Positions 4,348 through 22,300 of a DNA stretch of 22,300 nt are shown piece by piece (position 1 is the first letter of the stretch; the number at the start of each line of letters is the position of its first letter). Location: positions 1-22,300 of IMG/VR virus record IMGVR_UViG_3300048107_000357, one strand, 5' to 3'. The notes under the pieces were generated by a model. That model was given only the letters and a program-made list of their open reading frames with translations. It had not been told where the DNA came from and searched no databases. The translations under genes and the position numbers were made by a program. Source of the DNA: a virus.

Positions 4348-4369
4348 CGTAGTATAACAGGAAATGTTA

Positions 4370-5449: not shown

Positions 5450-5594
5450 TGAAAAGGGTAAGGATAAGTGCGGGGAACACTAGTATGATATTCCTGCTGC
5501 ACCCTCAGCAACAGGTATTAGAGACGTTGTTATTCTCCCTATAGGTCTCGGTTTGAGGGGAGAGCATTACTACGTTACGCTTTGTAACGTATTT
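5450..5594 (-). promoter_or_regulatory. psbA 5' leader with three inverted repeats
   Basis: The predicted transcript start near 5594 leaves a leader of about 145 nt that contains no gene. It holds a perfect 8-bp inverted repeat at 5571-5591 (TACGTTAC, 5-nt loop, GTAACGTA) beginning within about 3 nt of the RNA start; a 6-bp repeat at 5534-5563 (TCTCCC/GGGAGA, 18-nt loop); and an 8-bp stem with one G-U pair at 5493-5515 (CCTGTTGC/GCAGCAGG, 7-nt loop). GAGAC in the loop of the second could pair with GTCTC just downstream (5521-5525), giving a pseudoknot-like arrangement. None has a T-tract, so they are not terminators. A role in mRNA stability or translation control of psbA is inference. Confidence 0.55.
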
Positions 5595-5600
5595 GTATTT

Positions 5601-5629
5601 AGTATAACATGAATCCCTAACTTTGTAAA
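5601..5629 (-). promoter_or_regulatory. psbA: psbA promoter (sigma70-type, with overlapping CTAAATA motif)
   Basis: On the minus strand TTTACA (5624-5629) and TATACT (5601-5606) are separated by exactly 17 nt, close to the sigma70 consensus used by the host polymerase. The -10 box runs into CTAAATA (5597-5603), giving TATACTAAATA; CTAAATA resembles the late-promoter element of T4-like phages. The site may therefore serve early host polymerase and the late phage-modified polymerase. The -35 box lies inside the last codons of the preceding DUF616 gene. Confidence 0.75.
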
Positions 5630-6477
5630 GGCAAAGTTGGAGATATCACATTACGTTCAATGAACTCAGAGTGATCATGTTTTGCGAAAACAAAGGGATG
5701 TAATCCCGTGATCTCTCTTAGTTCAGCAAGGATCTCACGTCGCTTCGTCCATTGGTCAGGTTTCCCTGCCTGTGGATGCCTTTTGCGACGGTATTGTTTT
5801 CCTTGCTGTCCAAATAATATACCACAACTACCTGCTCTGTGGAGATACTTCCCTCTTTTGTCTCTCCATAGTTCATGCCACCCATCTTCGATGAAAGTCA
5901 TCTGCTTATTGGTGAACTGCTTGGCAGCATCAAACGAAATCTGATCTCGGTTGGGTCCAATCTGTGCATACTTCCACCACAGATCACCAAACTCTTCATA
6001 GTTTTCTAGACGACGCCAGATAGATCCCAGCACAGGACTGCTGTACTTCTTGAAGTCATAGTTCATCCACTTCAGGACTCGGGTGATCTCTAGTTGCTGC
6101 TCCTTTGTATTCATGGAGGACATAAACCCCTCCAAGATCTCATCGTAGTATGAGTAACGATTCACATGACGGATGACTGTGAAAGAACTCTCCTCAAAGT
6201 ATCTCTTACAATTTTCTACGTATTCTTTAGTCATGATGTAGCAACCATCAATCCACACAACCTCCTCACCCTCATCAAATACTTTATGAGGATTGATCTT
6301 GACGTAGGAAGAACGGATACGAGGACAGGAATGATCACATGGAATCTCTCGGAACTCCCATGGACCTTTCCTTTCAACAGTATCATCAGCGAACATCACA
6401 TACTTGACATCCGGATCGTAGTAATTTTCATCCGGTATCTCATCGTATCCATTAGTGATACAAGAGTAGATAATCAT
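5617..6477 (-). CDS. DUF616 (TOD1/MUCI70-like) glycosyltransferase, array member 4
   Basis: A 286-residue soluble protein with the DUF616 pattern: an N-terminal strand IIYSCITNGYD (2-12), CPR at 51-53, WIDG at 75-78, SIWRR at 152-156 and NRDQISFD at 176-183. DUF616/TOD1/MUCI70 proteins are predicted GT-A type glycosyltransferases; plant members act in cell-wall polysaccharide synthesis, but donor and acceptor here are unknown. WIDG is the likely counterpart of the DxD metal/sugar-nucleotide site. It is the closest paralogue of its neighbour at 6474-7289: both share the N-terminal motif, WIDGCY, SPVL, SIWRR and the HPQAG segment. Its ATG overlaps the previous stop by 4 nt. It is the last gene of the glycan block, and its end carries the psbA promoter. 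Confidence 0.75.
   Translation of the reverse strand: MIIYSCITNGYDEIPDENYYDPDVKYVMFADDTVERKGPWEFREIPCDHSCPRIRSSYVKINPHKVFDEGEEVVWIDGCYIMTKEYVENCKRYFEESSFTVIRHVNRYSYYDEILEGFMSSMNTKEQQLEITRVLKWMNYDFKKYSSPVLGSIWRRLENYEEFGDLWWKYAQIGPNRDQISFDAAKQFTNKQMTFIEDGWHELWRDKRGKYLHRAGSCGILFGQQGKQYRRKRHPQAGKPDQWTKRREILAELREITGLHPFVFAKHDHSEFIERNVISPTLPLQS
5619..5638 (-). repeat. Inverted repeat over the psbA -35 box
   Basis: AACTTTG and CAAAGTT form a perfect 7-bp inverted repeat with a 6-nt spacer. It covers the final codons and part of the stop codon of the DUF616 gene and overlaps the psbA -35 hexamer. No T-run follows directly, so it is a poor terminator. It could be an operator for a DNA-binding protein or a weak 3' end hairpin for the glycan mRNA. 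Confidence 0.5.
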
Positions 6478-7289
6478 CGGTTCAATACGTTTGCATCAAT
6501 CATTGATTGGAAGTTGTGCTTGTAGTACAACCTTGGAATCATACGAGTGCACCGACGTATCTCCTTGAGCATTTCATCTTCACGCTTATACTGCTCCAGA
6601 TCTCCTGCTTGGGGATGCTTTCCTAAGCGATTCAACTTACCTGTTCGGTGGTCAAAATCAATACCAACCTCAGGCCAGTTGTCTTTTAGTGTATTTTTTA
6701 TTGTCTGCCAGGGTAATGCAGTCAGTTGACGTGCAGTATCAAAAGAAATCTGGTCACGGTTAGGACCAATCAAAGAATACTTCCACCACAAGTCACCAAA
6801 CTTACTGATCTCAGGAGTAATACGTCTCCAAATTGATGCCAGTACAGGACTGCAATAGTCTTTGAAGTTATAGTTCAGTTCCACCAATGCTTCCATGATC
6901 TCCACCATCTGTGCCTTGGTATTGAATGAAGACACGTAACCTTCCATCACTTCCTCAACAAAATTGAAGCGACAAGGATGAATCATATGAGTCTGATTGT
7001 TACGACTCAGGATATGTTTAGAAGTTTCTACAAACTGTTTGGTGATTACATAACACCCATCAATCCAAACCACGGACTCACCCGCATCAAAATAAAGATG
7101 AGGACAGATCTTGGGGTGAGCAGATCTCCTACGTGGACACTCCTCTTCTACTTTGATTGGATACTCTTCCCATTTTTCTGGCACATCAACAGTGCCATCT
7201 GTAAAGGCAACATACCTGACACTGGGATCATAGTAATGATCATCAGAGAATTTGTCGTATCCGTTAGTGACGCAGGTGTAAATAATCAT
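6474..7289 (-). CDS. DUF616 (TOD1/MUCI70-like) glycosyltransferase, array member 3
   Basis: A 271-residue paralogue of the following gene. It has IIYTCVTNGYD (2-12), CPRRR at 51-55, WIDG at 75-78, SIWRR at 152-156 and GPNRDQISFD at 175-184, then a tail with GKHPQAGDLEQY and a basic stretch. No signal peptide or membrane segment is present, so it should act in the cytoplasm. Family knowledge supports a glycosyltransferase; the linkage cannot be predicted. It overlaps both neighbours by ATGA. Its C-terminal KHPQAG-D-EQY segment also appears in the two copies inside the 825-residue protein, tying the array to one duplicated ancestor. Confidence 0.75.
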   Translation of the reverse strand: MIIYTCVTNGYDKFSDDHYYDPSVRYVAFTDGTVDVPEKWEEYPIKVEEECPRRRSAHPKICPHLYFDAGESVVWIDGCYVITKQFVETSKHILSRNNQTHMIHPCRFNFVEEVMEGYVSSFNTKAQMVEIMEALVELNYNFKDYCSPVLASIWRRITPEISKFGDLWWKYSLIGPNRDQISFDTARQLTALPWQTIKNTLKDNWPEVGIDFDHRTGKLNRLGKHPQAGDLEQYKREDEMLKEIRRCTRMIPRLYYKHNFQSMIDANVLNR

Positions 7290-8227
7290 ATGGGGTGTGG
7301 GAAAAAGAATGGATCATCAAAGTGGGATCTAATAGTTCGACTCGGTCTTCGTATGACACCAGTCTTTCTATTGGTATACCACAGAAGACTGTGATATGGA
7401 TTCAAAACGTTCAATTTTCTGTACTTATAATCGAAATCATCTGACATATCACCGAACAACCAGACAGGTTTATCATTTTTAGTAAGAAGAGCACAGCGAT
7501 AGTTCCTTGAGTTCTTTTCCAGACCTGTCACCCCACATAGAATGTCTACTGCCCACTCAGGATTGACATGATACTCAGCACCATACCTACCCCCCTTGTT
7601 CGCCCACCACTCACCACCATCACTGGCGTCTGACCATACATCAATCAATTCTCTAGCAGGAATAGTTTCATACTTCATACCACTCATCTGCAATGCCACT
7701 GCAAAGGACAGTTGATCCCTCCTACCACCCTTCAAGTACCAATCCCACCATAGTTGGTCGAAGTCAGTCTTACCACGCCTCCAGAGGATCGTACACAGGG
7801 GTGACAGATAGTCCTTGAAGTTATACCCTGCCTCCACAGCAGCAACCGTGAACTTATACACATCAGCGAAAGGAACAAGTCCTCTACAAATATATTCAGC
7901 ACACTCTTCAAGATACCTATGACAATGTGGATGCTCTATTACAGTAAAACTATCCTGAGAAAGAATGTAATTACTTACTTCACAAAATTTATTGTTTAGT
8001 GTATGAAGTTTAGATGCATCGATATACACATTTGGTTCATCAAATGGGCACAACATCTTCACCAGACGTGACATACGCACAGGATCAGATGAGAACCCAG
8101 GTATGTACTCTAGTTCCCAACCTTCCTGCTCCTTCACACTTCCATCATGGAAACAAACACACCTACAATCAATATCTAATTGTGGTAACTGAAAGTATCC
8201 GTTAGTAATGGATGTATAGAGGATCAT
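7286..8227 (-). CDS. Divergent DUF616-like protein with C-terminal extension, array member 2
   Basis: The first 200 residues follow the DUF616 plan (ILYTSITNGY at 2-11, CFHDGS at 25-30, LWRR at 148-151, RRDQLSF at 169-175), but the WIDG motif is altered to YIDA (68-71). A tail of about 110 residues not shared with the neighbours follows; it is rich in aromatic residues (KYRKLNVLNPYHSLLWY) and ends PFFFPHP. The lost glycine in the putative catalytic loop and the new tail suggest a changed donor, a changed acceptor or a non-catalytic partner role. It overlaps the genes on both sides by 4 nt, so it is expressed with them. Membership in the family is likely; activity is uncertain. Confidence 0.65.
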   Translation of the reverse strand: MILYTSITNGYFQLPQLDIDCRCVCFHDGSVKEQEGWELEYIPGFSSDPVRMSRLVKMLCPFDEPNVYIDASKLHTLNNKFCEVSNYILSQDSFTVIEHPHCHRYLEECAEYICRGLVPFADVYKFTVAAVEAGYNFKDYLSPLCTILWRRGKTDFDQLWWDWYLKGGRRDQLSFAVALQMSGMKYETIPARELIDVWSDASDGGEWWANKGGRYGAEYHVNPEWAVDILCGVTGLEKNSRNYRCALLTKNDKPVWLFGDMSDDFDYKYRKLNVLNPYHSLLWYTNRKTGVIRRPSRTIRSHFDDPFFFPHPI

Positions 8228-10701
8228 ATAATGTCATAGTGTTTCATGTAGAACTCATGAAACTTATATTTGATATACAAAAGTGGTTTTAGTTTGGTAA
8301 TTTTCTCTAGATCTTTTATGAACTGATCAACCTTGGTGTACTGCTTCTTGTCCCCATACTGAGGATGCTTCTTGACTCTACCAACCTTGTGCTGGAAACC
8401 CATCTTGATTCCAGAGTCAGACCTGTTCTCATAATACAGAGGTTTGGTGCCAGTCAATTGAACAGCAGCATCAAAAGGAATACTATCCCTATTGATACCT
8501 TTCTTACTCCAATTATACCACTGCTCATTGAATTCTATAGTCTCATCGTACAAATATCTCCATACGATTGAACACTGAGGACTAGAATACTTATTGAACT
8601 TATATTTTGTGGCACTCAGTGCCTCAGTGATCTCAATTCCCCCCTCATAGGGGAAGAAAGCACATGTAAATCCTTCCAACAACTCATCATAGTATGAGAA
8701 CTTACTGATGTTCCTAAGTGTGGTAAAAGGGAAGGAATACAAACTCTTCTCAACAAACTCTCGGGTATGTTTGAAGCACCCATCCACCCACACAGTGTAA
8801 GTTCCTTTCTCAAAAAACTCATGGGGGTTACACTTTGGATAGAACGCCAAGTCTCGTGGACAATCAATATCAAGATCTAATTTGATGTACTCCCATGGAC
8901 CCTTGGTAGTATCAATAGTGCCATCATGAAAACATACGTATCTTATTTCAGGATCATAGTAATTCTTATCTGGTATCACATCATGTCCATTAGTGATGCA
9001 TGTATAGATGACAACAAATCTTTTATCGACACGGACACCTTCTTGATAAGGATAAGTATTGAATGACAGTCCTAAACTACCACCAATACCATAGTATTTC
9101 ATGTAAAACTCATGGAGTTTGTACTTACAAAACAACTTTGCTTCATATCCAGTCTCTCGATCAATTTCCATAAGGAACTGATCCACCTTTTTATATTGCT
9201 CTAGGTCACCCAGTTGCTCATGCTTTTTGATTCTACCTTTCTTGTTATTGAAACCAAATTGTATACCACAGTCATCCCGGTTATCATAGAACCGGGGAGT
9301 TACTCCTGTGAACTGCATGGCAGCATCAAAAGGAATCGTATCTCGATTTAGATACCCCTCCTCATACCATTTCTTATTGAACTCGATTACCTCCGGAGTC
9401 AACTGTCTCCAGACAACAGAGCACTGTGGACTAGAATATTTTAGGAAGTCATATCCCGCCGATGCCAGATACTTGGTGTAGTTGACTGCTGTGTTGTACC
9501 TATAGAAAGCACAAGTAAATCCTTCCAACAACTCATCGTAGTATGAGAACTCTCCTCCATGACGCAGGACCGAGAAAGGAAAACATCCAAGAGATCTTTC
9601 AATAAAATCATAAGAATGATCAAAGCATCCATCAACCCATACTGTATATGAGTTAGGAGGAAAAAACTCATGAGCATTTGCTTTGACATAGAACGCCAAC
9701 TCTCTTGGATTATCAATACCAAGATGAGAAACATCAATATACTTCCAAGAACCTGACATCTTTTGACTATCAGGAACAGATAACTTCCCATCATGGAAGA
9801 TCCAATAGTTTACGTCTGGATCAAAGTAAAAACTTTGAGGGATATCATAATCATTAGTGATACATGTATAAACATTCAATTGATTATGTTTGATTCTTTC
9901 TCCAAATTCATGAGGTAAAGTGGGCACTGCTGCCTTCATCATTGCAGAAGTAATATCACTGTCCCAGATTTTTACTAATTTATTTTGAAAGTCAGTGATC
10001 TGTTTGTTGGTTGGTCGATCAATATTATAAGATTCTTCGTACTTCTTGACCCTATTAGTGTTGTCAAGACTGACCTGCATCGGTACACGCAGTGCTGTCA
10101 GTCCTGTCTCATACTCAGCAAGTGCACTAGCAATTTGATCACGGTTGACTCCTCTCCTATACCACCGTGCCCATGCTCTGTTCCACTGTCTATTCTCTTG
10201 GAAGTTATGTCTCCAGACAACGCAGTTGATTGTTTGTTTGTAATCCTTTTTAGGGTAAGGATCATAACCAGCCAGCATCCTCTCGGACATCCTGGTAATT
10301 TCTAAACTGTCAGAAAATCCTTCGGCATATAACTTATTGAACTCTTCAAGCAAACTGCGGGGGTCAGGGTGCTCTTGTAGTACAACAAAACTATGAGGAT
10401 GCCGAAAGACTTTCCTACTATATTCAACAAGATCTCGGGTTATATTATATGCTGCGTCTACCCACACAGTCAGATCAGAAGACTGTGTGAAGTATATATG
10501 CGGTTCATGCTTGATAACATATGACTTCCTAACAGGACAGTCAGGAAGTTCTACATTTAGATCATCAAGATGTACATACTCCCACGGACCTTTGGTTGTA
10601 GGAATGCTTCCATCATGGAACAAAACATACCTACAACCTTCCTCAACATATGCGTCGGGGACAGAATCATATCCGTTGGTTATGCACGTATAAAAAATCA
10701 A
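8224..10701 (-). CDS. Three-domain DUF616 protein (825 aa), array member 1
   Basis: The protein is three DUF616-like domains in one chain: domain 1 about residues 2-215, domain 2 about 276-538 and domain 3 about 563-825. Each opens with (I/V)YTCITN followed by a FHDG strand. Domains 2 and 3 are close copies: both have VWVDGCF (354-360 and 637-643), SYYDELLEGFTCAF, KYSSPQC and IPFDAA, and both end in KYK-HEFYMK. Domain 1 is more divergent, with VWVDAAY at 79-85. A TTG codon is chosen as start because the resulting MIFYTCITNGYD lines up with the ATG starts of the paralogues and gives a TTGA overlap with the previous stop. Such a chain could add several sugars in a row or act as a scaffold; this is inference. 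Confidence 0.75.
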   Translation of the reverse strand: MIFYTCITNGYDSVPDAYVEEGCRYVLFHDGSIPTTKGPWEYVHLDDLNVELPDCPVRKSYVIKHEPHIYFTQSSDLTVWVDAAYNITRDLVEYSRKVFRHPHSFVVLQEHPDPRSLLEEFNKLYAEGFSDSLEITRMSERMLAGYDPYPKKDYKQTINCVVWRHNFQENRQWNRAWARWYRRGVNRDQIASALAEYETGLTALRVPMQVSLDNTNRVKKYEESYNIDRPTNKQITDFQNKLVKIWDSDITSAMMKAAVPTLPHEFGERIKHNQLNVYTCITNDYDIPQSFYFDPDVNYWIFHDGKLSVPDSQKMSGSWKYIDVSHLGIDNPRELAFYVKANAHEFFPPNSYTVWVDGCFDHSYDFIERSLGCFPFSVLRHGGEFSYYDELLEGFTCAFYRYNTAVNYTKYLASAGYDFLKYSSPQCSVVWRQLTPEVIEFNKKWYEEGYLNRDTIPFDAAMQFTGVTPRFYDNRDDCGIQFGFNNKKGRIKKHEQLGDLEQYKKVDQFLMEIDRETGYEAKLFCKYKLHEFYMKYYGIGGSLGLSFNTYPYQEGVRVDKRFVVIYTCITNGHDVIPDKNYYDPEIRYVCFHDGTIDTTKGPWEYIKLDLDIDCPRDLAFYPKCNPHEFFEKGTYTVWVDGCFKHTREFVEKSLYSFPFTTLRNISKFSYYDELLEGFTCAFFPYEGGIEITEALSATKYKFNKYSSPQCSIVWRYLYDETIEFNEQWYNWSKKGINRDSIPFDAAVQLTGTKPLYYENRSDSGIKMGFQHKVGRVKKHPQYGDKKQYTKVDQFIKDLEKITKLKPLLYIKYKFHEFYMKHYDII
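8227..9876 (-). repeat. Tandem duplication encoding DUF616 domains 2 and 3
   Basis: The halves 9088-9876 and 8227-9015 encode homologous domains. Their DNA is still alike in places: tccttccaacaactcatc occurs at 8671 and again at 9520, an offset of 849 nt (283 codons), with tagtatgagaact following in both. A short linker that differs from the domains (residues about 539-562) separates the copies. Retained DNA identity points to a fairly recent duplication. Confidence 0.7.
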
Positions 10702-11444
10702 TTTAGTTTATCCACAGGTTGCGACTTACCCAATGCTTCACTCACTGTACGGTTTGTGACGTTACCAGGTTCACGTAAGAACCATCCAGTAGCAATGTAC
10801 TTAGATTCATTACCCGTAAGGAATGAACCTCTGTGCATGTGAGTATACGTAGCAGGCCAAAGAACAATAGTTCCTTTCTTAGGATGGAACGTTTTCTCCT
10901 GGTGATAGAAGTCAGTGCCGCCACCATTCTCAGGAGGGATATCATTCAGATAAATCATCCACGTCAGCACACGGTCACGGTAGAGGAAGTTGCCATTCTC
11001 ACAATGCCATACATGGTATCCACCACCTGGATCAGTGCGTTGTAGTTTGCAGGTCCAAGAAGAAATTGGATCACAAGAATCAACGAGACCTTTGTACTTC
11101 TGTACGTACATCTCAAATGCTTGACCAATTGCTTGGTTGACCTGAGCGGTCATCGTTGTGTCACAAACTTCAAGATAGAGTTGATGGTCCTTACGACCCA
11201 TGCCACCTTTAGGGAATTGGGATTCCCCATCATTGAAGTGGTCAATGGTAAAATCATTGTCTCCAATTTTTGTGACGGCATGCTCGGAGGATTCTCCTAC
11301 GAAATGCTTTTTGTTGTACCAGTATTCAAAAACCTCACGCAAAGAATCACAGAATTCCCAGCGTACAAAGTTCTCAAAGATACCTATGTGATCATAGAAA
11401 ACTGGTTCAGTGAAGTCAGGTTGTTTGATGATCTCTTCTGTCAT
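10698..11444 (-). CDS. 2OG-Fe(II) oxygenase (prolyl-4-hydroxylase-like)
   Basis: A 248-residue protein whose second half fits the double-stranded beta-helix of 2-oxoglutarate/Fe(II) dioxygenases: YHVWHCENG at 143-151, MIYLND at 163-168, NGGGTDFYH at 173-181, then GTIVLWPATYTHMHRGS at 191-207 and KYIATGW at 215-221. The first iron motif appears as H147-x-E149 rather than the usual HxD, the distal histidine is H202 or H204, and K215 may bind 2-oxoglutarate. Such enzymes hydroxylate proteins, lipids or small molecules using oxygen and 2-oxoglutarate. Its place between GT25 and DUF616 genes suggests a hydroxylated acceptor (for example hydroxyproline or hydroxylysine) or a modified sugar. ATGA overlap upstream and TTGA downstream. 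Confidence 0.8.
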   Translation of the reverse strand: MTEEIIKQPDFTEPVFYDHIGIFENFVRWEFCDSLREVFEYWYNKKHFVGESSEHAVTKIGDNDFTIDHFNDGESQFPKGGMGRKDHQLYLEVCDTTMTAQVNQAIGQAFEMYVQKYKGLVDSCDPISSWTCKLQRTDPGGGYHVWHCENGNFLYRDRVLTWMIYLNDIPPENGGGTDFYHQEKTFHPKKGTIVLWPATYTHMHRGSFLTGNESKYIATGWFLREPGNVTNRTVSEALGKSQPVDKLN

Positions 11445-12241
11445 TGTTTCTGTGCTTGTTCCATGTACACTGATGGTGGTATTCTACCACAATATTCGTC
11501 TAGTTCCATAATCTGATCGACAGTATGCTCCCTAGCATCTCTCTCCCAGAACTGTGCTAGTGCCTCATTACTACCCTTATGAAAGATGTCAATATGTTCT
11601 TCATGAATTGAAGAACCCATGTCCAATCTGTAATTGAATAGGGGAGTAGAGTAAGACTTACCACTGTCAAGAATCAAATCCTCTGACACTGCACGAGGTT
11701 TGATGTTCTGATCCAGTTTCCACTGATTGCCACGGAGGTGACACCTAAGGACCTTGGTTGCATGGTGCCTGCTGATTAGATAACCAGCAGCAGAGAAATC
11801 ATTGATGAACCTTTGATGTAACTTGAGAGTAATCCCATTGGGATTGATGATGGTTAGTTGCAGGCAGTCCCAGTTGATGGGCAGTCGCTTCCTAACATCC
11901 TTCCAAGTGAAAGTCCAATGCTTGACAGTGGAAAGATCAATGTCGTCCTCCATGATGAAGACTTCATCTAGGTCAGTCTCTTCGACAAAGTAACGCAGAG
12001 CATTTAGGTGAGACATTACACATGCGATCTCACCTTTGTTCATATTATGAGGTACAGAACCCTTCAGGTTCTCCTCATACTCATCACCATCAATACCACT
12101 AATGCGGTGGTTATCAGTGAGTCCCCAGTAGTCCAATTGATCTTCCATGTATTCCCGTCGTTGGGTCACACGGTCTAGATTGATCCAAAGAACTTTAGGG
12201 AACCCCTTCAGTTTGTCGATAGACTTATTCCTATCAGTCAT
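11441..12241 (-). CDS. Glycosyltransferase family 25
   Basis: The sequence matches GT25, which includes bacterial LPS galactosyltransferases and animal collagen hydroxylysine galactosyltransferases. From the chosen start, the family strand VLWINLDRVTQRREYM is at 17-32, GEIACVMSHLNALR at 70-83 and the metal-binding FIMEDDID at 95-102; SEDLIL comes later. The open frame extends upstream to 12313, but the ATG at 12241 is chosen because it places the family start correctly and overlaps the previous stop by 8 nt, as at the next junction. The protein is then 266 residues, the usual GT25 size. It lies next to a 2OG oxygenase of prolyl/lysyl-hydroxylase type, a pairing with a known parallel in collagen modification; the donor is probably a UDP-sugar. 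Confidence 0.85.
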   Translation of the reverse strand: MTDRNKSIDKLKGFPKVLWINLDRVTQRREYMEDQLDYWGLTDNHRISGIDGDEYEENLKGSVPHNMNKGEIACVMSHLNALRYFVEETDLDEVFIMEDDIDLSTVKHWTFTWKDVRKRLPINWDCLQLTIINPNGITLKLHQRFINDFSAAGYLISRHHATKVLRCHLRGNQWKLDQNIKPRAVSEDLILDSGKSYSTPLFNYRLDMGSSIHEEHIDIFHKGSNEALAQFWERDAREHTVDQIMELDEYCGRIPPSVYMEQAQKQ

Positions 12242-15445: not shown

Positions 15446-16113
15446 CGTATGTCTTGAAAATGATAATGAAAACCAAAGGTCTCAATTCCTTTGTGTTCCG
15501 GGCACTCTACTTCTTTAGAGAACCTAGCGGCAACTTCCACTGGAGCAAAGACGCATCCTTGTTCCTCAAAAAGGTGCCGATTGTGGATACATATGTTTCC
15601 GTCCTCGTTATATAGTCCGGCATTCATATGCTTGTAGAAGTCTCCTTCGTTGACTTCCCAAGGCACAGTCACACGCGAGGGAACTTGTAATAACTTTCTG
15701 GAACGTAAGGAAAATCCCCCATTCCCAACCCGCTGACTCTTACCCCAGGGGTCGAGATAGGCGGTTGGATCGTCTCTCCACGGGGCACCGATGTAGTCGT
15801 ATTGTAACCACGAATTATCCCATAACCAAGGTCGAATAACAAAACCGTCAGGATGAATAAGGAGGCAATGCGAGGATTGAATATGATTGAGAAAATTATA
15901 TATGCAATAAAAATTGAAATCATTGATACTCTGGATTGGATAAGTTTTCTCATACTGTGCTTGATCACAGAGACCTTCTGGTCTTCCTTTACTGCCAAGA
16001 AATTTGACAGCACCCCATTCAATAGATTCACATGATTTATTTACCGCATAGACTGCTTCCGGTATGTCAACATCTGCTAGCATCAGCAGTGTGACTTCAG
16101 GAATCTTTAGCAC
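15442..16113 (-). CDS. DUF5672-family protein (putative glycosyltransferase)
   Basis: A 223-residue protein with DUF5672 features: VTLLMLADVDIPEAVYAV at 7-24, LIHPDGFVI at 85-93, YDYIGAPWR at 105-113, VGNGGFSLRSRKL at 129-141 and a final GFHYHF. DUF5672 proteins are found in glycan gene clusters and are thought to be GT-A-like transferases, but activity has rarely been shown. The start codon is GTG at 16113, 17 nt inside the previous gene and preceded by AGGG; the later ATG would delete the first beta-strand VTLL, so GTG is preferred. The function in this cluster is probably sugar transfer, by context. Confidence 0.75.
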   Translation of the reverse strand: MLKIPEVTLLMLADVDIPEAVYAVNKSCESIEWGAVKFLGSKGRPEGLCDQAQYEKTYPIQSINDFNFYCIYNFLNHIQSSHCLLIHPDGFVIRPWLWDNSWLQYDYIGAPWRDDPTAYLDPWGKSQRVGNGGFSLRSRKLLQVPSRVTVPWEVNEGDFYKHMNAGLYNEDGNICIHNRHLFEEQGCVFAPVEVAARFSKEVECPEHKGIETFGFHYHFQDIR

Positions 16114-17002
16114 GTTTGACTGCCCTGTTGAACACCGAGTATAAGTCTAACAGATTAGTGTCAATATTTCTAGCCTTGTCACAAAGATCTTGAGCATTCG
16201 ACAACACGGTTTTAGTGATCTTCCTAAAGTCATTTACCCATAAGACAGGATAGTCTTTATATAACTCTTGCAAGTAATCATTTTTCACCATGATTGGCAC
16301 CCGTTTTAGGTAAAGCACCTCCCAGTTTCGATGACAATCAACCGCATTGCCTTGAGGACAGATCATAAATTTATGATTCTGAATCTCTCTCAGGTAGGTC
16401 TCATAGTTTACTGCTTCTCCGACCGTCGCGTAGGATCTTTTACTAAAAATCTCACGGATGTTGCCACGTGCACTGATGTTAGTGTGCTCTGCATGATTGA
16501 TGTAGAGTAATTTTTTAGGTTTAGGATCTTTCTCCATAGCAACGTGGAGAATACTTTGACGTTCATCATTGGCACTCAACTTCCTACCCACACCATAAGG
16601 AAATGGATATAGTTTATCTTTGAACCCCACTGCATTTGCAGCAAAAATCCCCAACACATTGTCGGGGATATCAATATCAGAATTGATAGGAGTGTCTTCG
16701 TTATTACAAAAAATTATAAATTTTTTCTGAGGATAACAAGCACATAGTTTCATTAGATCATTACGTTTCTGTAGACCATTGATCCACACTTGATCTTTTT
16801 TATTACCGCACTTGATTTGTCTGTGATACAATCTAATGTTATCAATGAATAGTTTGATAACTTCTTTATCACATAAAAAATCAGTGTTAGATGAGTTGGC
16901 ATCATTCATAAAGGCACCGTAGACTCCTCCTACCATGCCTGCCTGATCACCAAAACTATAGTCACAAAGATCTGCAACCGCTGGTCCCGAAATCAGCTTC
17001 AT
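16097..17002 (-). CDS. Exostosin-like (GT47-type) glycosyltransferase
   Basis: A 301-residue protein. Its C-terminal part carries the exostosin-like pattern YLREIQNHKFMICPQGNAVD (203-222), then CHRNWEVLYLKRVPIMVK (223-240) and YPVLWVNDF (251-259). In GT47-related proteins this region binds the nucleotide sugar. The N-terminal half is less clear, with KFIIFCNNED near 94-103. No anchor or signal is seen. Eukaryotic exostosins build heparan sulfate and xylans; phage and bacterial relatives have no fixed role. Coupled by ATGA to the GT17 gene upstream. The family call is moderate; a GT-B-type transferase of some kind is more certain. Confidence 0.65.
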   Translation of the reverse strand: MKLISGPAVADLCDYSFGDQAGMVGGVYGAFMNDANSSNTDFLCDKEVIKLFIDNIRLYHRQIKCGNKKDQVWINGLQKRNDLMKLCACYPQKKFIIFCNNEDTPINSDIDIPDNVLGIFAANAVGFKDKLYPFPYGVGRKLSANDERQSILHVAMEKDPKPKKLLYINHAEHTNISARGNIREIFSKRSYATVGEAVNYETYLREIQNHKFMICPQGNAVDCHRNWEVLYLKRVPIMVKNDYLQELYKDYPVLWVNDFRKITKTVLSNAQDLCDKARNIDTNLLDLYSVFNRAVKRAKDS

Positions 17003-17844
17003 ACTTTCACAAACTTCTTCAGTTTACGATTCTTCTGTGCCCTCACATATGAAGGGAAGGTGTCGTCGATCTCTACAGTAGTTGGTTGGTAAAGATAACT
17101 ACGACCATAAGGATCTAGATTATGCTTGATCCTATCCTCCATACTAGACCTAAACTCTTCTGTATTATTTTCCTGATGCTCATAAGCATCCATCTTCTGT
17201 CGTACCGTATCTGCATCACCAAAGAAACTCCAATGCCATGAGGCATTAGCAATCTTGTATGCCTGATGATGTGACTGACGGAGTTTGTCAACACTCATTG
17301 TCTTCAGTGTTTTGAAATCACACACTCTGGTTCCCATCCACTGGTCCTCACATTTGACGTTGAGGTAGTAGTAATAAAGGGGACCAGTAAGAACGTAATG
17401 ATTATTAGGATCAAACCAGTCATCAATACATTTCAGTGCTTCAGGGTTGGCAATTTCATCAGCATCACTGGTAAGAATAATGTCATCATCCTTTGCCTTA
17501 CCTAGCAGAGCATAGATTGCACTGTCCTTATGGAAGCATGCACGTTGGTACGGTAGTGGCAGTTTATAGATATCATCTTCCATCATGCTCCGGTGATAAG
17601 GAACATTCTCCCAGAATTTTTCTAATGTCTGATTATCGTCAATCGTCTCATGATAGATGATCTTGTCTTCCCACTTCTTGAACCGCTTACGGTTCTCTGA
17701 GAAGTACATAGGTTTTTGGTTACCTGTGAATGTAATATTAGATTCATTGATAACAAAATAATCTACTTCGTTACCAAGAATATTCATTCTCATTTCAAGT
17801 AAGTCCAGTTCATTATAGAACGTGAACACATCATAGACTGCCAT
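16999..17844 (-). CDS. GT17 (beta-1,4-N-acetylglucosaminyltransferase-like)
   Basis: Strong match to GT17. It starts VYDVFTFYNELDLLEMRMNI (3-22) with VDYFVINESNITFTG at 27-41 and KPMYFSEN at 44-51. The metal-binding motif is TSDADEI at 125-131, followed by the WHWSFFG segment. In animals GT17 (MGAT3) adds bisecting GlcNAc to N-glycans; bacterial and viral members have unknown acceptors. The length (281) is normal for prokaryotic members. Its ATG overlaps the preceding 2OG oxygenase by 14 nt and its end overlaps the exostosin-like gene by 4 nt. Confidence 0.88.
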   Translation of the reverse strand: MAVYDVFTFYNELDLLEMRMNILGNEVDYFVINESNITFTGNQKPMYFSENRKRFKKWEDKIIYHETIDDNQTLEKFWENVPYHRSMMEDDIYKLPLPYQRACFHKDSAIYALLGKAKDDDIILTSDADEIANPEALKCIDDWFDPNNHYVLTGPLYYYYLNVKCEDQWMGTRVCDFKTLKTMSVDKLRQSHHQAYKIANASWHWSFFGDADTVRQKMDAYEHQENNTEEFRSSMEDRIKHNLDPYGRSYLYQPTTVEIDDTFPSYVRAQKNRKLKKFVKV

Positions 17845-18373
17845 AATTTATGTTCAAAGAAAAGCGTACGTTAGAGGAGGGAGAAGAACTGGAGTGGAGT
17901 GTCCTACCATCGAACACTATTATTTTACCACGTTTAGGTTCCTCTGTATGTATCACATCACCAGATGAATCAAAAAAATATGTGTCACCATCAGAATCAT
18001 TAGGATAATAGAGTGCGACTACATGTGGACGGTCGTCATCAACGTGAGGATTGTGAGGGACATCCACAGCATCAGGTCTGGGATATTGCAGGGTCATATG
18101 TGCCCTGAACATCTTCTTGTCTGGTAAGTTGATTGCTTTACCAATCTCATCCCACGGAAACTTATAAAAAAAGTCAGACGTTGTGCCCTTGACGTGCAAT
18201 AACGTATGACTGAAGTAGGGATTCATTTTTTTTCTCAAGGGATGGTCTACGTTGCCGTATGCACAGTCCTTGAAAAAATAGTAGGGCATCTCATGACACA
18301 GATTCTCAATCAGTTTTTGATGAGTAACCTTGAGTCTATACCTTGTAACTAAAGAGGAACTCTCGTTGTTCAT
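17831..18373 (-). CDS. 2OG-Fe(II) oxygenase-like protein, second copy type
   Basis: A 180-residue protein that keeps the full facial triad: HNPHVDDDRPH with H110 and D112 (HxD), then RGKIIVFDGRTLHSS with distal H160, and R170 (in NVRFSLNINY) for 2-oxoglutarate. The core LYYPNDSDGDTYFF fits the jelly-roll strands. It is not closely related to the oxygenase at 10698-11444 in length or motif spacing. The start ATG lies 38 nt inside the previous gene; AGGAG is 15 nt upstream and no other ATG occurs before residue 29, so this start is kept. It probably hydroxylates a sugar, lipid or peptide in the same glycan pathway; the substrate is unknown. Confidence 0.75.
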   Translation of the reverse strand: MNNESSSLVTRYRLKVTHQKLIENLCHEMPYYFFKDCAYGNVDHPLRKKMNPYFSHTLLHVKGTTSDFFYKFPWDEIGKAINLPDKKMFRAHMTLQYPRPDAVDVPHNPHVDDDRPHVVALYYPNDSDGDTYFFDSSGDVIHTEEPKRGKIIVFDGRTLHSSSSPSSNVRFSLNINYGSL

Positions 18374-19109
18374 TAGTGTTCGCCCACTCTCCTGTCTTGA
18401 TATAGTCTGATAGGACCATCATATTGATGACTACATCCGTATTATAAAGCATTTTATAATTTAGATGTTCACCAATACACAAGTCTGTGCAATAAAGATT
18501 AGTAATTTTATCACTACAAAGTGCTGCAGCAATACCAAACGTCCCTACTCCAGACGTAGCGACATGTTTTGCTGCCATTAGCGTAGCAAAATCTTCCTCA
18601 ACGCTTTTAGATTGGACCGTAACCTTAGGATTCCACCTGAGTTCTTCAACGATTGGATTGTGTCGGTCAGGTTCAGTGACGACAATTGCCTTCTCAAAGT
18701 TCTCAAGTAGTGCACCATAAAAACAGTAAGGATTAGGGACATATTGACCAGGATTATCAACCCCCCGGTCAAAGACATCTCCACTACGAATATGGATAAC
18801 GAGGCAATCAGGATCCACCTCCACAGGTGGGAGGTCAAGACGCGGTCTGATATATGTTTTACAAAACGATCGCATCTCGGTATAGACTTTACCGATTTCG
18901 AGCGGGACTTCTTTGAATGGTCCATCATAATAAAAAAATTTACTAAACCCAGACCGTCTAGTGTCACCAAACTTTTCAGTAAAAGTAGAAATTATCTCGT
19001 GCTCTAGGGGTTGGATAAACTCGGTGCTGTATGCCTGAGCACACATCAATCCAACAGCACATTGTTGAATGTTGTTACCAAGTCTACCATACCAATGAGA
19101 TAGTTTCAT
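18336..19109 (-). CDS. Fucosyltransferase-fold protein (GT11/NodZ-like)
   Basis: The N-terminus YGRLGNNIQQCAVGL (7-21) and the central VIHIRSGDVF (104-113) correspond to the GRLGNQ and HxRxGD motifs of GT11/GT23-type enzymes that bind GDP-sugars. KHVATSGVGTFGIAAAL (181-197) corresponds to the later SSFS/GxGTFG block. It differs from the clear GT11 at 13189-13977, so it is a distinct family member rather than a duplicate. At 257 residues it is normal in length. Donor probably a GDP-linked sugar. ATGA overlap with the FkbM gene upstream and a 38-nt overlap downstream. Confidence 0.75.
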   Translation of the reverse strand: MKLSHWYGRLGNNIQQCAVGLMCAQAYSTEFIQPLEHEIISTFTEKFGDTRRSGFSKFFYYDGPFKEVPLEIGKVYTEMRSFCKTYIRPRLDLPPVEVDPDCLVIHIRSGDVFDRGVDNPGQYVPNPYCFYGALLENFEKAIVVTEPDRHNPIVEELRWNPKVTVQSKSVEEDFATLMAAKHVATSGVGTFGIAAALCSDKITNLYCTDLCIGEHLNYKMLYNTDVVINMMVLSDYIKTGEWANTNEQREFLFSYKV

Positions 19110-19762
19110 ACAAAAATGTTTCGTGCTTCTGATCTAACACACGCAAAGGGTTTCCAAACTGATTCTTTTACAACAGTAGGATCAACCCACCAATCTTCAT
19201 AAGAATTGCCACCATTACAAACACAAGCACATACCAGTTGGTAACCAAGATCCTCTAAGAACTTACGTGAATGATCACGGATGGTGTCACCGTCCTTGTA
19301 CGAGTCATGTTCAAAAGTGATGACGCTGGCACGGAATTCATCATGAGGGAATGCTTTGAGTGCATTGAACGTCACCTCAGGAGGTTCACAGTCAACAGAG
19401 AAGTAATCAACACGACCCTGCCACTTCTCTTTAGCGATTGCTTCGGAGTAATCAAACTTAGTGGCATCTGCTTCATAGCAGTGGTTTTGCCGTGCCATGT
19501 CTCCGTTGAAAACCTCACACATTGAACGCTCAATCTCTACAGAGAAACCACGCCAACCAAATACGGTCTCAAGTAGGAAAGTATTACTCAAAGATTGAGG
19601 ATGGTTAGCACCCACCTCAACATACTTACCATTCTTTTTTCCATTCAGCATAGTTAGGACAAACAAATCCTGGTATGCTTGAGAGAAATTTTGGAATACT
19701 TTGGTATGCCCCGTAAAAGTATGCTTCAGGGTATCGCGTTCATAGTTATACGTAGTGTTCAT
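19106..19762 (-). CDS. FkbM-family methyltransferase
   Basis: A 218-residue protein with the FkbM start FSQAYQDLFVLTML (26-39) and the S-adenosylmethionine-binding motif KYVEVGANHP (46-55), then WRGFSVEIE (70-78) and DYFSVDCEPPE, where acidic residues bind the cofactor. FkbM enzymes O-methylate sugars or other hydroxyls; in polysaccharide clusters they often cap or decorate glycans. Its position between the sugar-nucleotide enzymes and the transferases fits sugar O-methylation. ATGA overlaps on both sides. Confidence 0.88.
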   Translation of the reverse strand: MNTTYNYERDTLKHTFTGHTKVFQNFSQAYQDLFVLTMLNGKKNGKYVEVGANHPQSLSNTFLLETVFGWRGFSVEIERSMCEVFNGDMARQNHCYEADATKFDYSEAIAKEKWQGRVDYFSVDCEPPEVTFNALKAFPHDEFRASVITFEHDSYKDGDTIRDHSRKFLEDLGYQLVCACVCNGGNSYEDWWVDPTVVKESVWKPFACVRSEARNIFV

Positions 19763-20859
19763 GCGCCCTCAAGGTTCTTGCCGATTTGTTGAATGATCCA
19801 ATTGTAAGTTAGAGAGATACCTTCTTCAAGGGTTTGTGAGTAATCCCAACCTAATTTCTCTCGGATTAGATCGTTGTTGGAGTTGCGTCCTCGAACACCT
19901 GTGTGAGGAACATCAAGATGAATCTTAGTAACATCTTTACGTGCAACTTTTGCAGTGATTTCTGCCAGTTGGTTGATGGTGACCATCTCCTCAGATCCAA
20001 TGTTCACAGGACCCATGAAGTCAGACTGCATCAGTCTCCAAGTCGCTTCGATGCATTCATCAATGAACAAGAAGGAACGAGTTTGTAAGCCATCTCCCCA
20101 CACCTCGATAGATCCACCCTGGAGCGGGAGGAAAGCGACTTTGCGGCAGATTGCAGCAGGTGCCTTCTCTTTTCCACCGTCCCAGGTTCCTTCAGGTCCG
20201 AAGATGTTGTGATAGCGAGCGACACGAACAGGAATCCCATGATTACGGTTGTAAGCAAAGAAAAGTCTTTCGCTAAAGAGTTTTTCCCATCCGTACTCCG
20301 AATCAGGAGCAGCAGGGTACGCAGATTCTTCACGGCAGTCTGGGTTATCAGGGTCTAATTGATTATGCTCAGGATACATGCAAGCAGAAGAACTGTAAAA
20401 GATCTTTGTGGGTTGATCTTTCTTAGGACGATTTGCTACCGTCCACTCTTTGTCACGACCATCAAAGGTCTCATTGAATTTGTGGACTGACTGCAGCAGG
20501 TTCAAGTTGATGCTTGCAGAGTTATGCATGATGTCTGCATCATGCTCACCCGTGAAGATGTAACCAGCACCACCCATGTCGGCAGCAAACTGATAGATCT
20601 CATCAAAGGTGTCAATGTACTGGTAAGGAACAGAGTTATAAAAGTTACCCTGTTGACCCTTGTACTCAATTACACGTTCGACAAAAGTATAATCTCGCAG
20701 ATCACCTTGGATGAATTCATCCGCTGCTGAATCTGAGAAGTCAGGAACCTTGAGGTCTACACCACGAACCCAATACCCTTCGGTCTTGAGTCGCTTGACC
20801 ATATGACTACCGATGAAACCACCGGCACCCAGGACCAATGCTCGCTTTTGTCTATCCAT
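19759..20859 (-). CDS. GDP-mannose 3,5-epimerase-like SDR
   Basis: A 366-residue extended SDR that closely follows plant-type GDP-mannose 3,5-epimerase, which makes GDP-L-galactose (and GDP-L-gulose). It has the NAD-binding GAGGFIG at 11-17, FAADMGGAGYI at 91-101, the redox/acid Cys160 in YSSSACMYPE, Tyr189 and Lys193 in EYGWEK, and Lys232 in GKEKAPAA. GDGLQTRSFLFIDE and GVRGRNSNNDLIREKLGW are also strongly conserved. Short insertions near 65-85 and 130-148 are unlike the plant form. It shares one base with the rfbH-like stop (TAATG). Its product is a plausible donor for the GT10 and GT11-type transferases downstream. Confidence 0.9.
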   Translation of the reverse strand: MDRQKRALVLGAGGFIGSHMVKRLKTEGYWVRGVDLKVPDFSDSAADEFIQGDLRDYTFVERVIEYKGQQGNFYNSVPYQYIDTFDEIYQFAADMGGAGYIFTGEHDADIMHNSASINLNLLQSVHKFNETFDGRDKEWTVANRPKKDQPTKIFYSSSACMYPEHNQLDPDNPDCREESAYPAAPDSEYGWEKLFSERLFFAYNRNHGIPVRVARYHNIFGPEGTWDGGKEKAPAAICRKVAFLPLQGGSIEVWGDGLQTRSFLFIDECIEATWRLMQSDFMGPVNIGSEEMVTINQLAEITAKVARKDVTKIHLDVPHTGVRGRNSNNDLIREKLGWDYSQTLEEGISLTYNWIIQQIGKNLEGA

Positions 20860-22160
20860 TAGTAATTTTCGGAAATGTAATTAGAAACAACCTCACCTAT
20901 GTATTCTAACATAGGTTCAGTGATAACAGGACTACACCCAACAAAAAATACATTGTCTAGAACCTTACATGCATTTGGATAATTACTTGCAGGTTCAATA
21001 TGACGGTATGCAGGGTGCATCAAAATATTACCAGCAAAATAGTTTCTTGTCTGGACTTTATTGCTCTCTAAATATTTTACGAGGCGGTGTTTATATTCTT
21101 CGCAGACAATAGGAACACCAAACCAACTGGTCTCTGCATGCTCTTTCTCTTCAATAACCCGAGCACCAGGGATCTGACTGAAGATCTCGTGAAGTCTAGC
21201 TTTGTTGCTACGACGGATGCGATGTATCTCGTTTTGCTTAGTCAGTTGTACCAACCCAATAGACCCTTGCAGGTCGGCAGGCTTGAGGTTGTATCCCTGA
21301 ACGCCAAAGACATACTTATGATCGACATCTTGATCGTACCCTTCCAACCAGCGGTCGAATCGTTGTCCACAGACACCGTTGGGCAATTTGTTTTGGGATC
21401 CTACACAATAACAACCTCTCCCCCACCATGCAAAAGACCTGGCGATCTGGACGATCTCCTCAATGTTGGAGGAAACCATCCCGCCTTCAATCGTGCTGAT
21501 ATGGTGCGCTGGATAGAAAGAACAAGACGCTGCGACGGCATGTTTGGTAAGCAACTCACCACGCCACTTGGAACCGAGAGAGTCACAGTTGTCAGCGATG
21601 TACCGCAGGTTATTCCTATTGACAATCTCGATGAACTTATCGAAGTCATAGGGATTTCCCAGAACAGGAGACGAAAAAAGCGCCACGGTTCTAGGAGTGA
21701 TCTTACTCTCTAGTTGATCAAGATCCCAGTTGAGGTCATCATAATTGATGTCTACAAAAACTGGTGTAAGTCCATTCTGGATGATGGGATTGATAGTTGT
21801 GGGGAACCCACAGGTGCAGACGATGATCTCATCACCATCATGCCAATCAAAATACTTTTTTAGTGCAGCAATCATCACCAGGTTGGCAGATGATCCACTG
21901 TTCACCATCACAGAATAGTCAAACTCAAACTGCTTAGAGAATGCACGTTCAAATTTGTTGACTTCTTCACCAGCAGGCAACCATTTACCTTGGAGTAAGG
22001 TAGTGATGGCGGCAGCAGGTTCTTGATTATCCCAGTAAGGACCAGAATAATAAACATTATCACCTGGTTGCCATCCCCTGTTTGCCATGTAGGGAAATAG
22101 TTTTTCACCGTCCGCCTCTAAGGCATCGATGAAGTTCTCAACTTTCTTTCTTACGAACAT
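20859..22160 (-). CDS. rfbH: RfbH-type PMP-dependent sugar 3-dehydratase with [2Fe-2S] motif
   Basis: The 433-residue protein has the DegT/DnrJ aminotransferase fold but reads SFYPAHHIS at 214-222, with His220 in place of the PLP-binding lysine. This is the hallmark of CDP-6-deoxy-L-threo-D-glycero-4-hexulose-3-dehydrase (RfbH/E1/AscC), which removes the 3-OH on the way to 3,6-dideoxysugars. The E1 iron-sulfur pattern C-x57-C-x-C is exact (Cys192, Cys250, Cys252); the fourth cysteine (Cys264) follows after 11 residues instead of the usual 7. Asp190 should hold the cofactor ring. A reductase (E3/AscD-like) partner is not in the window. Its ATG lies 10 nt inside the upstream SDR gene. Substrate is probably a CDP- or other NDP-4-keto-6-deoxyhexose. 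Confidence 0.88.
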   Translation of the reverse strand: MFVRKKVENFIDALEADGEKLFPYMANRGWQPGDNVYYSGPYWDNQEPAAAITTLLQGKWLPAGEEVNKFERAFSKQFEFDYSVMVNSGSSANLVMIAALKKYFDWHDGDEIIVCTCGFPTTINPIIQNGLTPVFVDINYDDLNWDLDQLESKITPRTVALFSSPVLGNPYDFDKFIEIVNRNNLRYIADNCDSLGSKWRGELLTKHAVAASCSFYPAHHISTIEGGMVSSNIEEIVQIARSFAWWGRGCYCVGSQNKLPNGVCGQRFDRWLEGYDQDVDHKYVFGVQGYNLKPADLQGSIGLVQLTKQNEIHRIRRSNKARLHEIFSQIPGARVIEEKEHAETSWFGVPIVCEEYKHRLVKYLESNKVQTRNYFAGNILMHPAYRHIEPASNYPNACKVLDNVFFVGCSPVITEPMLEYIGEVVSNYISENY

Positions 22161-22300
22161 AACGACTCCACAATTTCAACAGTGTCCATACTTGGCATGA
22201 ATCCTAATTCTCGAAGCTTAGTAGTGTCAAGATAAAAGTCTTGTGTCTGGACATCATTATGAAATTTGGGAGGATCAATCATATCTATGGCAGAACGACT
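22151..22300 (-). CDS. NAD-dependent epimerase/dehydratase, C-terminal end only
   Basis: The last 49 residues of a gene that enters from the right edge. DPPKFHNDVQTQDFYLDTTK then LRELGFMPSMD is the typical C-terminal stretch of extended SDR sugar epimerases/dehydratases, where a DxxKxxELG(W/F)xP motif ends the substrate domain. It stops at TAA (22151-22153), overlapping the rfbH-like start by 10 nt. Directly before an RfbH-type dehydratase, a role in NDP-dideoxy or deoxysugar synthesis is likely, but the catalytic part lies outside the window. Confidence 0.7.
   Translation of the reverse strand, partial: SRSAIDMIDPPKFHNDVQTQDFYLDTTKLRELGFMPSMDTVEIVESLCS

Follow-up and report, generated by a model that had tools for sequence, protein, structure and literature searches.

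Do the long runs of sugar genes carried by cyanophages make a defined product and, if so, what does that product decorate? We address this question for an operon of glycan genes on the minus strand of the IMG/VR virus record IMGVR_UViG_3300048107_000357, which was analysed in its entirety (22,300 bases; hereafter the window). Whether cyanophage sugar clusters are functional or 'stuffer DNA' was left open in the available portion of a 2010 comparison (PMC3037559), and a partial literature search found no description of this exact operon in titles or abstracts. Our sequence comparisons indicate that the operon is very probably functional. With about even confidence, we further propose that it works as one unit making one defined oligosaccharide, most likely attached to a phage structural protein (a virion glycan), for which we infer substrates, order of steps, product and target.

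Gene packing and extent of the operon

Eighteen complete open reading frames (ORFs) run from 22160 to 5617 with every junction overlapping (gaps, in order, of -1, -4, -4, -38, -14, -4, -17, -4, -4, -4, -71, -80, -4, -4, -4, -4 and -4 bases), and a truncated nineteenth, g01, which encodes the 49 C-terminal residues of a short-chain dehydrogenase/reductase (SDR), shares 10 bases with g02 where the contig stops and extends the run to 22300. This agrees with the first-pass annotation of the window, made from the sequence alone, which had reported at least 18 consecutive overlapping genes with no intergenic base. The two largest overlaps probably arise from starts called too far upstream; -71 and -80 become -8 if the internal ATGs at 13196 and 12241 are real starts, and the PHROG match of g14 begins at the internal Met (12241).

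The 5' end of the operon is missing because the record itself ends at 22,300. A relative, G001 (IMGVR_UViG_3300028197_000003; 192,351 bases, linear and possibly incomplete), carries all 18 genes in unchanged order with protein identities of 93-99%, and adds upstream ORF75, which starts the unit and has no known family, a mannose-6-phosphate isomerase (MPI), RmlB and the complete SDR. The G001 run, located between talC and psbA, thus comprises 22 genes with 21 junctions <=0, from 109268 to 128153 (~18.9 kb). The earlier description of the operon as self-contained is not supported by this comparison, as it is cut by the contig end, has 22 genes in G001, and includes no recognised gene for GDP-mannose synthesis, dTDP-glucose synthesis or an E3-type reductase among its members. 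Because only about 40% of same-strand junctions in G001 are <=0 (54/136, from crude gene calling that misses small genes), a run of 22 genes is far longer than independent junctions would give by chance. Even so, tight packing is the usual state of cyanophage sugar cassettes and not unique to the window: in the annotations of three isolates, junctions <=0 make up 21/24 in S-SM2, 19/22 in Bellamy and 13/15 in S-SCSM1, with longest strictly gapless runs of 14, 9 and 9 genes, respectively.

The psbA/psbD stretch of the window is ~84% identical at the nucleotide level to Synechococcus and Prochlorococcus phage records. A 20-kb stretch of G001 aligned to T4-like cyanophage genes for terminase, portal and sheath proteins, with 71-76% nucleotide identity over 2-14% of the query, a coverage so low that we consider G001 to be without a close isolate; together with psbA and psbD, these matches identify a T4-like cyanophage genome, as in the known cyanomyovirus sugar or lipopolysaccharide (LPS) clusters. 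No tRNAs were found in the 34 kb surrounding the operon of G001.

Conservation, selection and signs of allele exchange

Loci were chosen by similarity to g02, g16 and g13 (best 80 for g02 and g13) and later by an alignment of the TOD1-like domains described below (best 80), and were grouped into clusters sharing an exact 400-mer, each represented by one locus, so that related viruses may split across clusters. The 162 loci formed 63 clusters, of which 57 with at least three core genes (g02-g15) were kept and six were dropped. The first-pass annotation had proposed looking for the same gene order in other cyanophage genomes, and it was found there: 474 of 475 adjacent core-gene pairs kept the window order across the 57 clusters, 455 of them being consecutive window genes, in a count that considers window genes regardless of any others between them and leaves out g04-like matches below 45% identity. 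The single out-of-order pair reflects a double match of g09 in one locus (L101), and many loci have a second FkbM-like gene with g10 and g11 on either side. Of the 14 core genes, 11 are present in every spanning cluster, the others being g04 (36/40), g06 (26/37) and g07 (34/38). Upstream of g02, clusters with room carry the SDR (37/37), RmlB (35/35) and MPI (32/33). In a small control, only 5/11 clusters have psbD at 800 bases or less past psbA.

The ratio of nonsynonymous to synonymous substitution rates (dN/dS) between the window and G001, a single genome pair, ranged from 0.03 to 0.19 in 18/18 genes, similar to psbA (0.084) and psbD (0.049). These values led us to reject the proposal that the cluster lacks a function and merely serves as stuffer DNA in headful packaging, a possibility named for cyanophage LPS clusters in the available portion of PMC3037559; the conserved order and the retained catalytic motifs of g02 and g03 speak against it as well, and we consider it exceedingly improbable. 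With low dN/dS in all 18 genes and a near-invariant order, the functionality half of the open question is largely answered for this lineage.

Synonymous divergence (dS) is uneven along the operon. Against L124, g09 (0.10) and g10 (0.47) are flanked by g08 (1.46) and g11 (3.15), g02-g04 range from 0.30 to 0.80, and g06 and the TOD1-like genes are saturated; milder unevenness was seen against L102, L094 and L122. We read this pattern as allele exchange within a fixed gene order, and in sequence terms it looks as though alleles have been exchanged by recombination inside the operon.

Predicted sugar supply

The first-pass annotation had named an SDR, an RfbH-type enzyme and a GDP-mannose 3,5-epimerase; profiles and motifs support an SDR, a 3-dehydrase and the epimerase, with the RfbH label replaced as follows. 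In g02, His takes the place of the lysine that binds pyridoxal phosphate (PAHHIS aligned to 3bcx), and a four-Cys [2Fe-2S] motif is present (Cys192-X57-Cys250-X1-Cys252-X11-Cys264) with a four-residue insertion relative to 3bcx, in a spacing that we take to be that of the motif. These features, including the four-Cys motif, are the hallmarks of E1/SpnQ-type 3-dehydrases in the available portion of PMC8987622. Since g02 does not reach the cut-off of the NCBIfam RfbH equivalog NF011936 (Table 1), we call it E1/SpnQ-like and not RfbH. The epimerase g03 keeps SSACMYPE, YGWEK and GGKEKAPAA relative to 2c59, motifs containing what we take to be the catalytic Cys/Lys and Tyr-Lys residues. In G001, the isomerase is of the cupin type, RmlB scores 376 bits against a TIGR01181 cut-off of 365, and the complete counterpart of g01 is a 284-residue SDR (110765-111619; Pfam Epimerase, 3.4e-30).

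On this basis, MPI would feed host synthesis of GDP-mannose, which g03 would convert to GDP-L-galactose and/or L-gulose. RmlB would make a 4-keto-6-deoxy sugar from dTDP-glucose, g02 would remove its 3-OH, drawing electrons from a donor that may be ferredoxin, and reduction of the ketone by the SDR would yield a 3,6-dideoxyhexose. No E3-like reductase gene for g02 was recognised among the operon genes, the part of G001 searched for one; a ferredoxin-like ORF was noticed by eye at G001 135797-136096.

Transferases and modifying enzymes

The nucleotide-sugar genes are contiguous with 13 probable transferase genes (15 domains), as in cyanomyovirus sugar/LPS clusters, and the operon also encodes a probable methyltransferase and two 2-oxoglutarate (2OG)-Fe(II) oxygenases. 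At least eight transferase types had been announced for the window and we count ten, one by structure model only and one under the Pfam cut-off. The methyltransferase and two oxygenases listed with them are likewise recovered, the former as a weak FkbM match (g04) and both of the latter by profile; in RN05-S, a gene annotated FkbM likewise comes after the epimerase, as g04 does after g03.

No Pfam match was obtained for g05. Its model gave VIA Z scores of 11.0 to FUT8, 10.3 to POFUT1 and 9.7 to NodZ, and 9.5-9.6 to bacterial heptosyltransferases, so that the closest matches are GDP-fucose-dependent enzymes, the heptosyltransferases scoring 1 to 2 Z units lower; Foldseek returned TM values of ~0.3 with SDR proteins in the top rows. 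The motif IHIRSGD is, we assume, significant for the fucosyltransferase superfamily. From its model, g05 is probably a GT-B-like member of that superfamily. With g10 (glycosyltransferase family GT10) and g12 (GT11), this gives three transferases of GDP-L-sugar-using types, which may work with g03, the putative source of GDP-L-galactose; these three fucosyltransferase-type enzymes could equally use host GDP-L-fucose. A sequence search of solved structures with the g05 and TOD1-like profiles gave nothing meaningful.

The best solved relative of g14 is the glycosyltransferase R655 (9crz; weak E-value, Table 1), presumably a Mimivirus protein, and those of g15 are prolyl 4-hydroxylases, at a weak E-value (0.0016). 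The GT25 gene g14 is directly followed by the oxygenase g15 (window 10698-12313, minus strand), in which HxE apparently stands in place of HxD. As to a collagen-like acceptor, no run of at least eight G-x-y units occurs among G001 ORFs of at least 60 residues. Among 50,697 phage records, g08 matched only the single-cell amplified marine virus AG-345-D19 and an uncultured 642-kb phage at E<=1e-5. In the proposed scheme, the soluble cytoplasmic transferases g05 and g07-g14 would assemble a fixed core, which the methyltransferase and oxygenases would modify.

Oxygenases and glycosyltransferases are also the two enzyme classes required for hydroxymethylation and glycosylation of phage DNA in the manner of T4. 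The transferase families found here are typical of polysaccharide and glycoconjugate synthesis, and NDP-deoxysugar and GDP-mannose 3,5-epimerase supply genes accompany them; we therefore rejected DNA modification, to which the gene types give no support, as very unlikely. The available portion of a review, moreover, reports no evidence of DNA modification or glycosylation in cyanomyoviruses (PMC2984593).

An array of TOD1/MUCI70-like domains

The last four genes, g16-g19, encode six paralogous domains with mutual identities of 28-55%, three of them internal repeats of g16 beginning near residues 4, 278 and 566. The PF04765 match of g16 exceeds the gathering threshold, yet just 55/314 profile positions are aligned, and at E<=0.1 the profile matches 9/21 family members, g19 not among them. 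The model of g19 has a GT-A fold, with VIA Z scores of 11.7 to LARGE1 (182 residues aligned, root-mean-square deviation 3.4) and 11.0 to alpha-1,3-galactosyltransferase, and a Foldseek TM of only ~0.4. Judged by length, the array holds about 4 to 6 domain units depending on the virus (19 clusters), in one-, two- or three-domain proteins, and at E<=1e-5 g16 matched AG-345-D19 only among the 50,697 phage records. In a scan with the domain alignment, g13-g15 precede the array in 34/39 clusters, and psbA comes after it, within 700 bases, in 21/22 clusters with room, so that the photosynthesis-gene setting noticed at first extends well beyond the window. This evolutionarily flexible set of 4-6 GT-A-type domains would add variable outer residues to the glycan.

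Expression of the operon

Between 4000 and 22300, promoter-like sites are at the level of chance (45 versus 43.9, standard deviation 7.0), whereas terminator-like sites on both strands exceed it (28 versus 11.1, standard deviation 3.3); the initial impression that no terminator is visible is therefore not true in the strict sense. Of the hairpins lying within genes on the coding strand, the strongest (16669-16647, in g08) is retained in close relatives only; its pairing is kept in L094 despite sequence changes and is weakened or lost in more distant relatives.

A near-consensus sigma-70-like site (TTGACA-17-TATACT) lies ~268 bases ahead of MPI in G001, with GATAAATA immediately ahead of it in the upstream sequence. 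Sites with at least 11/12 matches occur in 13/33 clusters (12 at 268-279 bases upstream) against 19/1000 random 450-base stretches of G001, and none was found in the remaining 20/33. This suggests early transcription by a host-type sigma-70 in part of the group. The late-type motif [ACT]ATAAAT[AGT] has 43 plus-strand matches in G001, nine of them within 150 bases of a called start; one of the nine falls within the operon, right where g07 starts.

The long gap separating the operon from psbA is occupied by a PhotoRC-II RNA (RF01717), which exceeds the gathering score both in the window and in G001 (70.9 bits). With its own promoter-like site, the PhotoRC-II leader and a terminator-like hairpin, psbA is probably a separate unit; co-transcription with the operon was considered and thought unlikely.

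Virion or host surface as target

The first-pass annotation had seen no flippase or polymerase, and no candidate for either, or for a ligase, appears among the 586 G001 ORFs of at least 60 residues, in which simple hydropathy predicted three or more membrane segments only for psbA, psbD and DoxX; G001 thus holds no candidate polytopic flippase, polymerase or transporter of the kind that a Wzx/Wzy or ABC-dependent O-antigen locus would contain. Hydropathy found three of the five helices that we take D1 to have, so weak segments may be missed. The flippase profile PF01943 matched 0/4 records (control 13/14), Wzy and ABC families not being searched by profile. A soluble machine, as had been concluded, does not follow from this absence: host cells own flippases and ligases and supply export machinery, and the lack of candidate phage export genes therefore does not distinguish virion from host-surface glycosylation.

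The many transferases, in an operon where no gene was recognised as coding for an anchor, would also suit a soluble or lipid-linked glycoside or an exopolysaccharide released at lysis instead of a virion or LPS glycan. Such a product seems improbable to us, as G001 has no candidate polymerase or export gene and we know of no precedent for a released phage glycoside of such complexity.

A more serious possibility, which we hold tentatively and with less confidence than even, is that at an early stage of infection the operon changes the host surface (LPS/core oligosaccharide or capsule) so as to block superinfection or grazing, borrowing the host lipid carrier, flippase and ligase. The GT10, GT11 and GT25 families are common in LPS loci, and the sigma-70-like site ahead of MPI in 13/33 clusters agrees with early action. 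Remodelling is also the interpretation given to P-SSM2-type clusters in the available portion of PMC2984593, which at the same time describes host surface islands as differing between strains, whereas the operon order is near-constant. The absence of a candidate polytopic export protein from G001 likewise speaks against remodelling, though not decisively, as does the rarity of close operon orthologs in the host-family genomes searched: in the 201 genomes of the family of G005 (Prochlorococcus AG-347-J21), a dehydrase of at least 60% identity occurs in three, an epimerase of 75% in one and a weak TOD-like match in one. A host origin of the operon was rejected after contig scans, which rely on exact short peptide matches and reach close relatives only; g08 found no relative and g02 two loci with the SDR and dehydrase pair alone.

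Several points weigh against the proposed scheme of one operon and a virion glycan. No virion protein has been linked to the operon. Soluble transferases are normal for O-antigen synthesis, and hosts have the flippases and ligases to complete it. The sigma-70-like promoter upstream, present in part of the group, suggests early expression, which fits host remodelling too. Since loci were chosen for similarity to window genes, the conservation counts are biased and apply to viruses of this type rather than to cyanophages in general. Among the host genomes surveyed is G005, whose dehydrase led us to it, and an in-frame stop interrupts one of the three dehydrase matches. In G005, an SDR (56%) and 3-dehydrase (73%) pair lies near glycan-like genes, as judged by eye (L179 9189-11299), and at least one sugar may therefore be of host-surface type. 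Early expression as such does not separate the two targets, because chlorovirus glycan transferase genes are likewise early in the available portion of PMC9614988.

As a judgement, we slightly favour virion glycosylation over host-surface remodelling, since gene order and gene content hardly change between diverged viruses. The glycan would then sit on a phage structural protein, as in chloroviruses and some mycobacteriophages. A more elaborate version of virion glycosylation, which we regard as speculative and rather unlikely, would be a factory of chlorovirus-like complexity in which the fixed core is attached to a phage protein, perhaps at a residue that g15 hydroxylates and on which the GT25 enzyme g14 starts the chain, in the manner of procollagen-type glycosylation. 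The fast-evolving array and alleles swapped by recombination would vary the sugars, and 3-deoxygenation would be driven by electrons from photosynthesis via ferredoxin; if true, the latter would tie the operon to the adjacent psbA. The acceptor half of the question becomes testable, because the sugars predicted from the operon are specific, of the L-galactose/L-fucose type and a 3,6-dideoxyhexose. Found on virions, the glycan would give ocean bacteriophages an equivalent of the capsid glycosylation of chloroviruses; found on host cells, it would explain the large share of the genome spent on host-surface change.

Features of the window

The window also holds a 402-residue ORF (2-1207, minus strand) whose 3' end is cut and which has no PHROG or NCBIfam match; by eye, it appears to resemble amidinotransferase-fold proteins. 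G001 holds tandem copies of this ORF type (132563-133888 and 133907-135370), the second 61% identical.

Table 1. Positions of the operon genes and neighbouring elements in the window, with the evidence for each assignment (AF2, AlphaFold2 model)
Feature	Position	Strand	Evidence
g01, SDR (NDP-sugar epimerase/reductase-like), C-terminal 49 aa	22151..22300	-	frame translation; cut by contig end
g02, E1/RfbH-like 3-dehydrase	20859..22160	-	3bcx 9.6e-66; NCBIfam RfbH 347.9 bits, under cut-off 423
g03, GDP-mannose 3,5-epimerase	19759..20859	-	2c59 6.3e-80; motifs retained
g04, probable FkbM-type methyltransferase	19106..19762	-	PF05050 E 0.06, under cut-off
g05, GT-B-like, probably fucosyltransferase superfamily	18336..19109	-	AF2 pLDDT 90.6; VIA
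g06, 2OG-Fe(II) oxygenase	17831..18373	-	phrog_61 4.7e-9, phrog_274 3.6e-30; PF13640 under cut-off
g07, GT17	16999..17844	-	PF04724 5.9e-26
g08, RXYLT1/GT47-like transferase	16097..17002	-	PF24785 6.1e-4, PF03016 6.1e-3, both under cut-off
g09, DUF5672, GT-A-type transferase	15442..16113	-	PF18922 6.2e-18; RN05-S relative annotated GTA-type
g10, GT10 (fucosyltransferase family)	14654..15445	-	PF00852 6.1e-10
g11, GT2	13974..14657	-	PF00535 1.5e-9
g12, GT11 (fucosyltransferase family)	13189..13977	-	PF01531 1.2e-27; phrog_2644 1.7e-106
g13, GT7C-type transferase; likely start 13196	12234..13259	-	PF02709 24.2 bits (cut-off 23); phrog_15655 1.8e-88
g14, GT25; likely start 12241	11441..12313	-	PF01755 1.2e-12; 9crz E 8.1e-4
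g15, 2OG-Fe(II) oxygenase	10698..11444	-	PF13640 1.9e-12; PDB prolyl 4-hydroxylase 0.0016
g16, 825 aa, three TOD1/MUCI70-like domains	8224..10701	-	PF04765 31.9 bits (cut-off 21.4)
g17, single domain, g16 family	7286..8227	-	35% to g18, 1.9e-30
g18, single domain, g16 family	6474..7289	-	45% to g19, 4.3e-87
g19, single domain, g16 family, GT-A fold (model)	5617..6477	-	AF2 pLDDT 92.8; VIA
psbA promoter-like site, TTTACA-17-TATACT with TG	5601..5629	-	consensus scan only
PhotoRC-II RNA (RF01717), psbA leader	5480..5577	-	65.3 bits, gathering 39
psbA (D1), neighbour, probably separate unit	4370..5449	-	~84% nucleotide identity to cyanophages
Terminator-like UUCG hairpin past psbA	4331..4348	-	terminator scan

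Comparison with known systems

Sugar/LPS clusters have been described in P-SSM2, S-SSM7 and S-SM2 (PMC3037559 and PMC2984593, available portions) and a cell-wall gene cluster in S-SCSM1 (PMC9602691, likewise). The first three are T4-like cyanophages with tightly packed sugar-nucleotide and glycosyltransferase genes, like the operon, and S-SM2 shares with the window the GDP-mannose 3,5-epimerase, GT11, GT7C-type and GT25 genes and a weak GT10-like gene. The G001 operon differs from these cyanomyovirus LPS clusters by its place between talC and psbA in surroundings free of tRNAs, by a 22-gene order kept in relatives, by the TOD1-like array and by the RmlB-SDR-dehydrase set. In its stead, phosphoheptose-type sugar genes occur in S-SM2 and Bellamy. 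In S-SCSM1 (NC_070962, 100-128 kb), MPI, nucleotide-sugar epimerases including GDP-mannose 3,5-epimerase, GT11, GT2, GT7C-like and GT25 genes are similarly packed, but relatives of window genes are 26-61% identical and otherwise arranged, no 3-dehydrase is present in that stretch, and g19 matches over 126 residues only, at 25%.

Much of the gene set also occurs in RN05-S, which, as S-B05, S-B43, RB11-B and S-H68, was isolated on Synechococcus MW02/LTWRED; the latter four resemble the window by single genes. RN05-S encodes MPI, RmlB-like, SDR, GDP-mannose 3,5-epimerase, FkbM, GT17, GT2, GT11, GT7C-like and GT25 proteins, a 3-dehydrase (67%) and a DUF5672 protein (40%), but in another order and with no GT10, GT47-like, g05-like or TOD-like genes in the 31 kb examined. 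The uncultured, unannotated AG-345-D19, from Pacific seawater, keeps the window order on three contigs (MPI-RmlB-SDR-g02-g03-g04-g05; g07-g12; g14-g15-g16-psbA), mostly at 55-80% identity; it differs by extra SDR-like and second FkbM-like genes and by TOD genes only 43% and 31% identical, and its three contigs showed neither g06 nor g13. The uncultured 642-kb phage (L193; LR756502, 445-465 kb) has matches to the 3-dehydrase (57%), two GT47-like, GT17-like, DUF5672-like, GT2-like and three GT11-like genes, in an order that differs from the window.

The PBCV-1 glycan genes are, to our knowledge, not arranged in one gapless operon. In the available portion of PMC9614988, mostly soluble, early-expressed virus glycosyltransferases glycosylate the PBCV-1 capsid protein, and the likeness extends to a multi-domain transferase protein, methyltransferases, a transferase formerly annotated exostosin and a glycan with L-rhamnose and L-fucose; the host is, however, a eukaryotic alga and the glycan is proven on capsid protein there. 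Virion glycosylation has also been reported in mycobacteriophages, as cited in the available portions of PMC12363180 and PMC12619734. Within the known cyanophage sugar clusters, a type already described, the window operon is a real and well-conserved variant; what is new here is its fixed order, an array, linked to psbA, of 4-6 domains of GT-A type that lie near TOD1/MUCI70 in sequence, and the signs of allele exchange.

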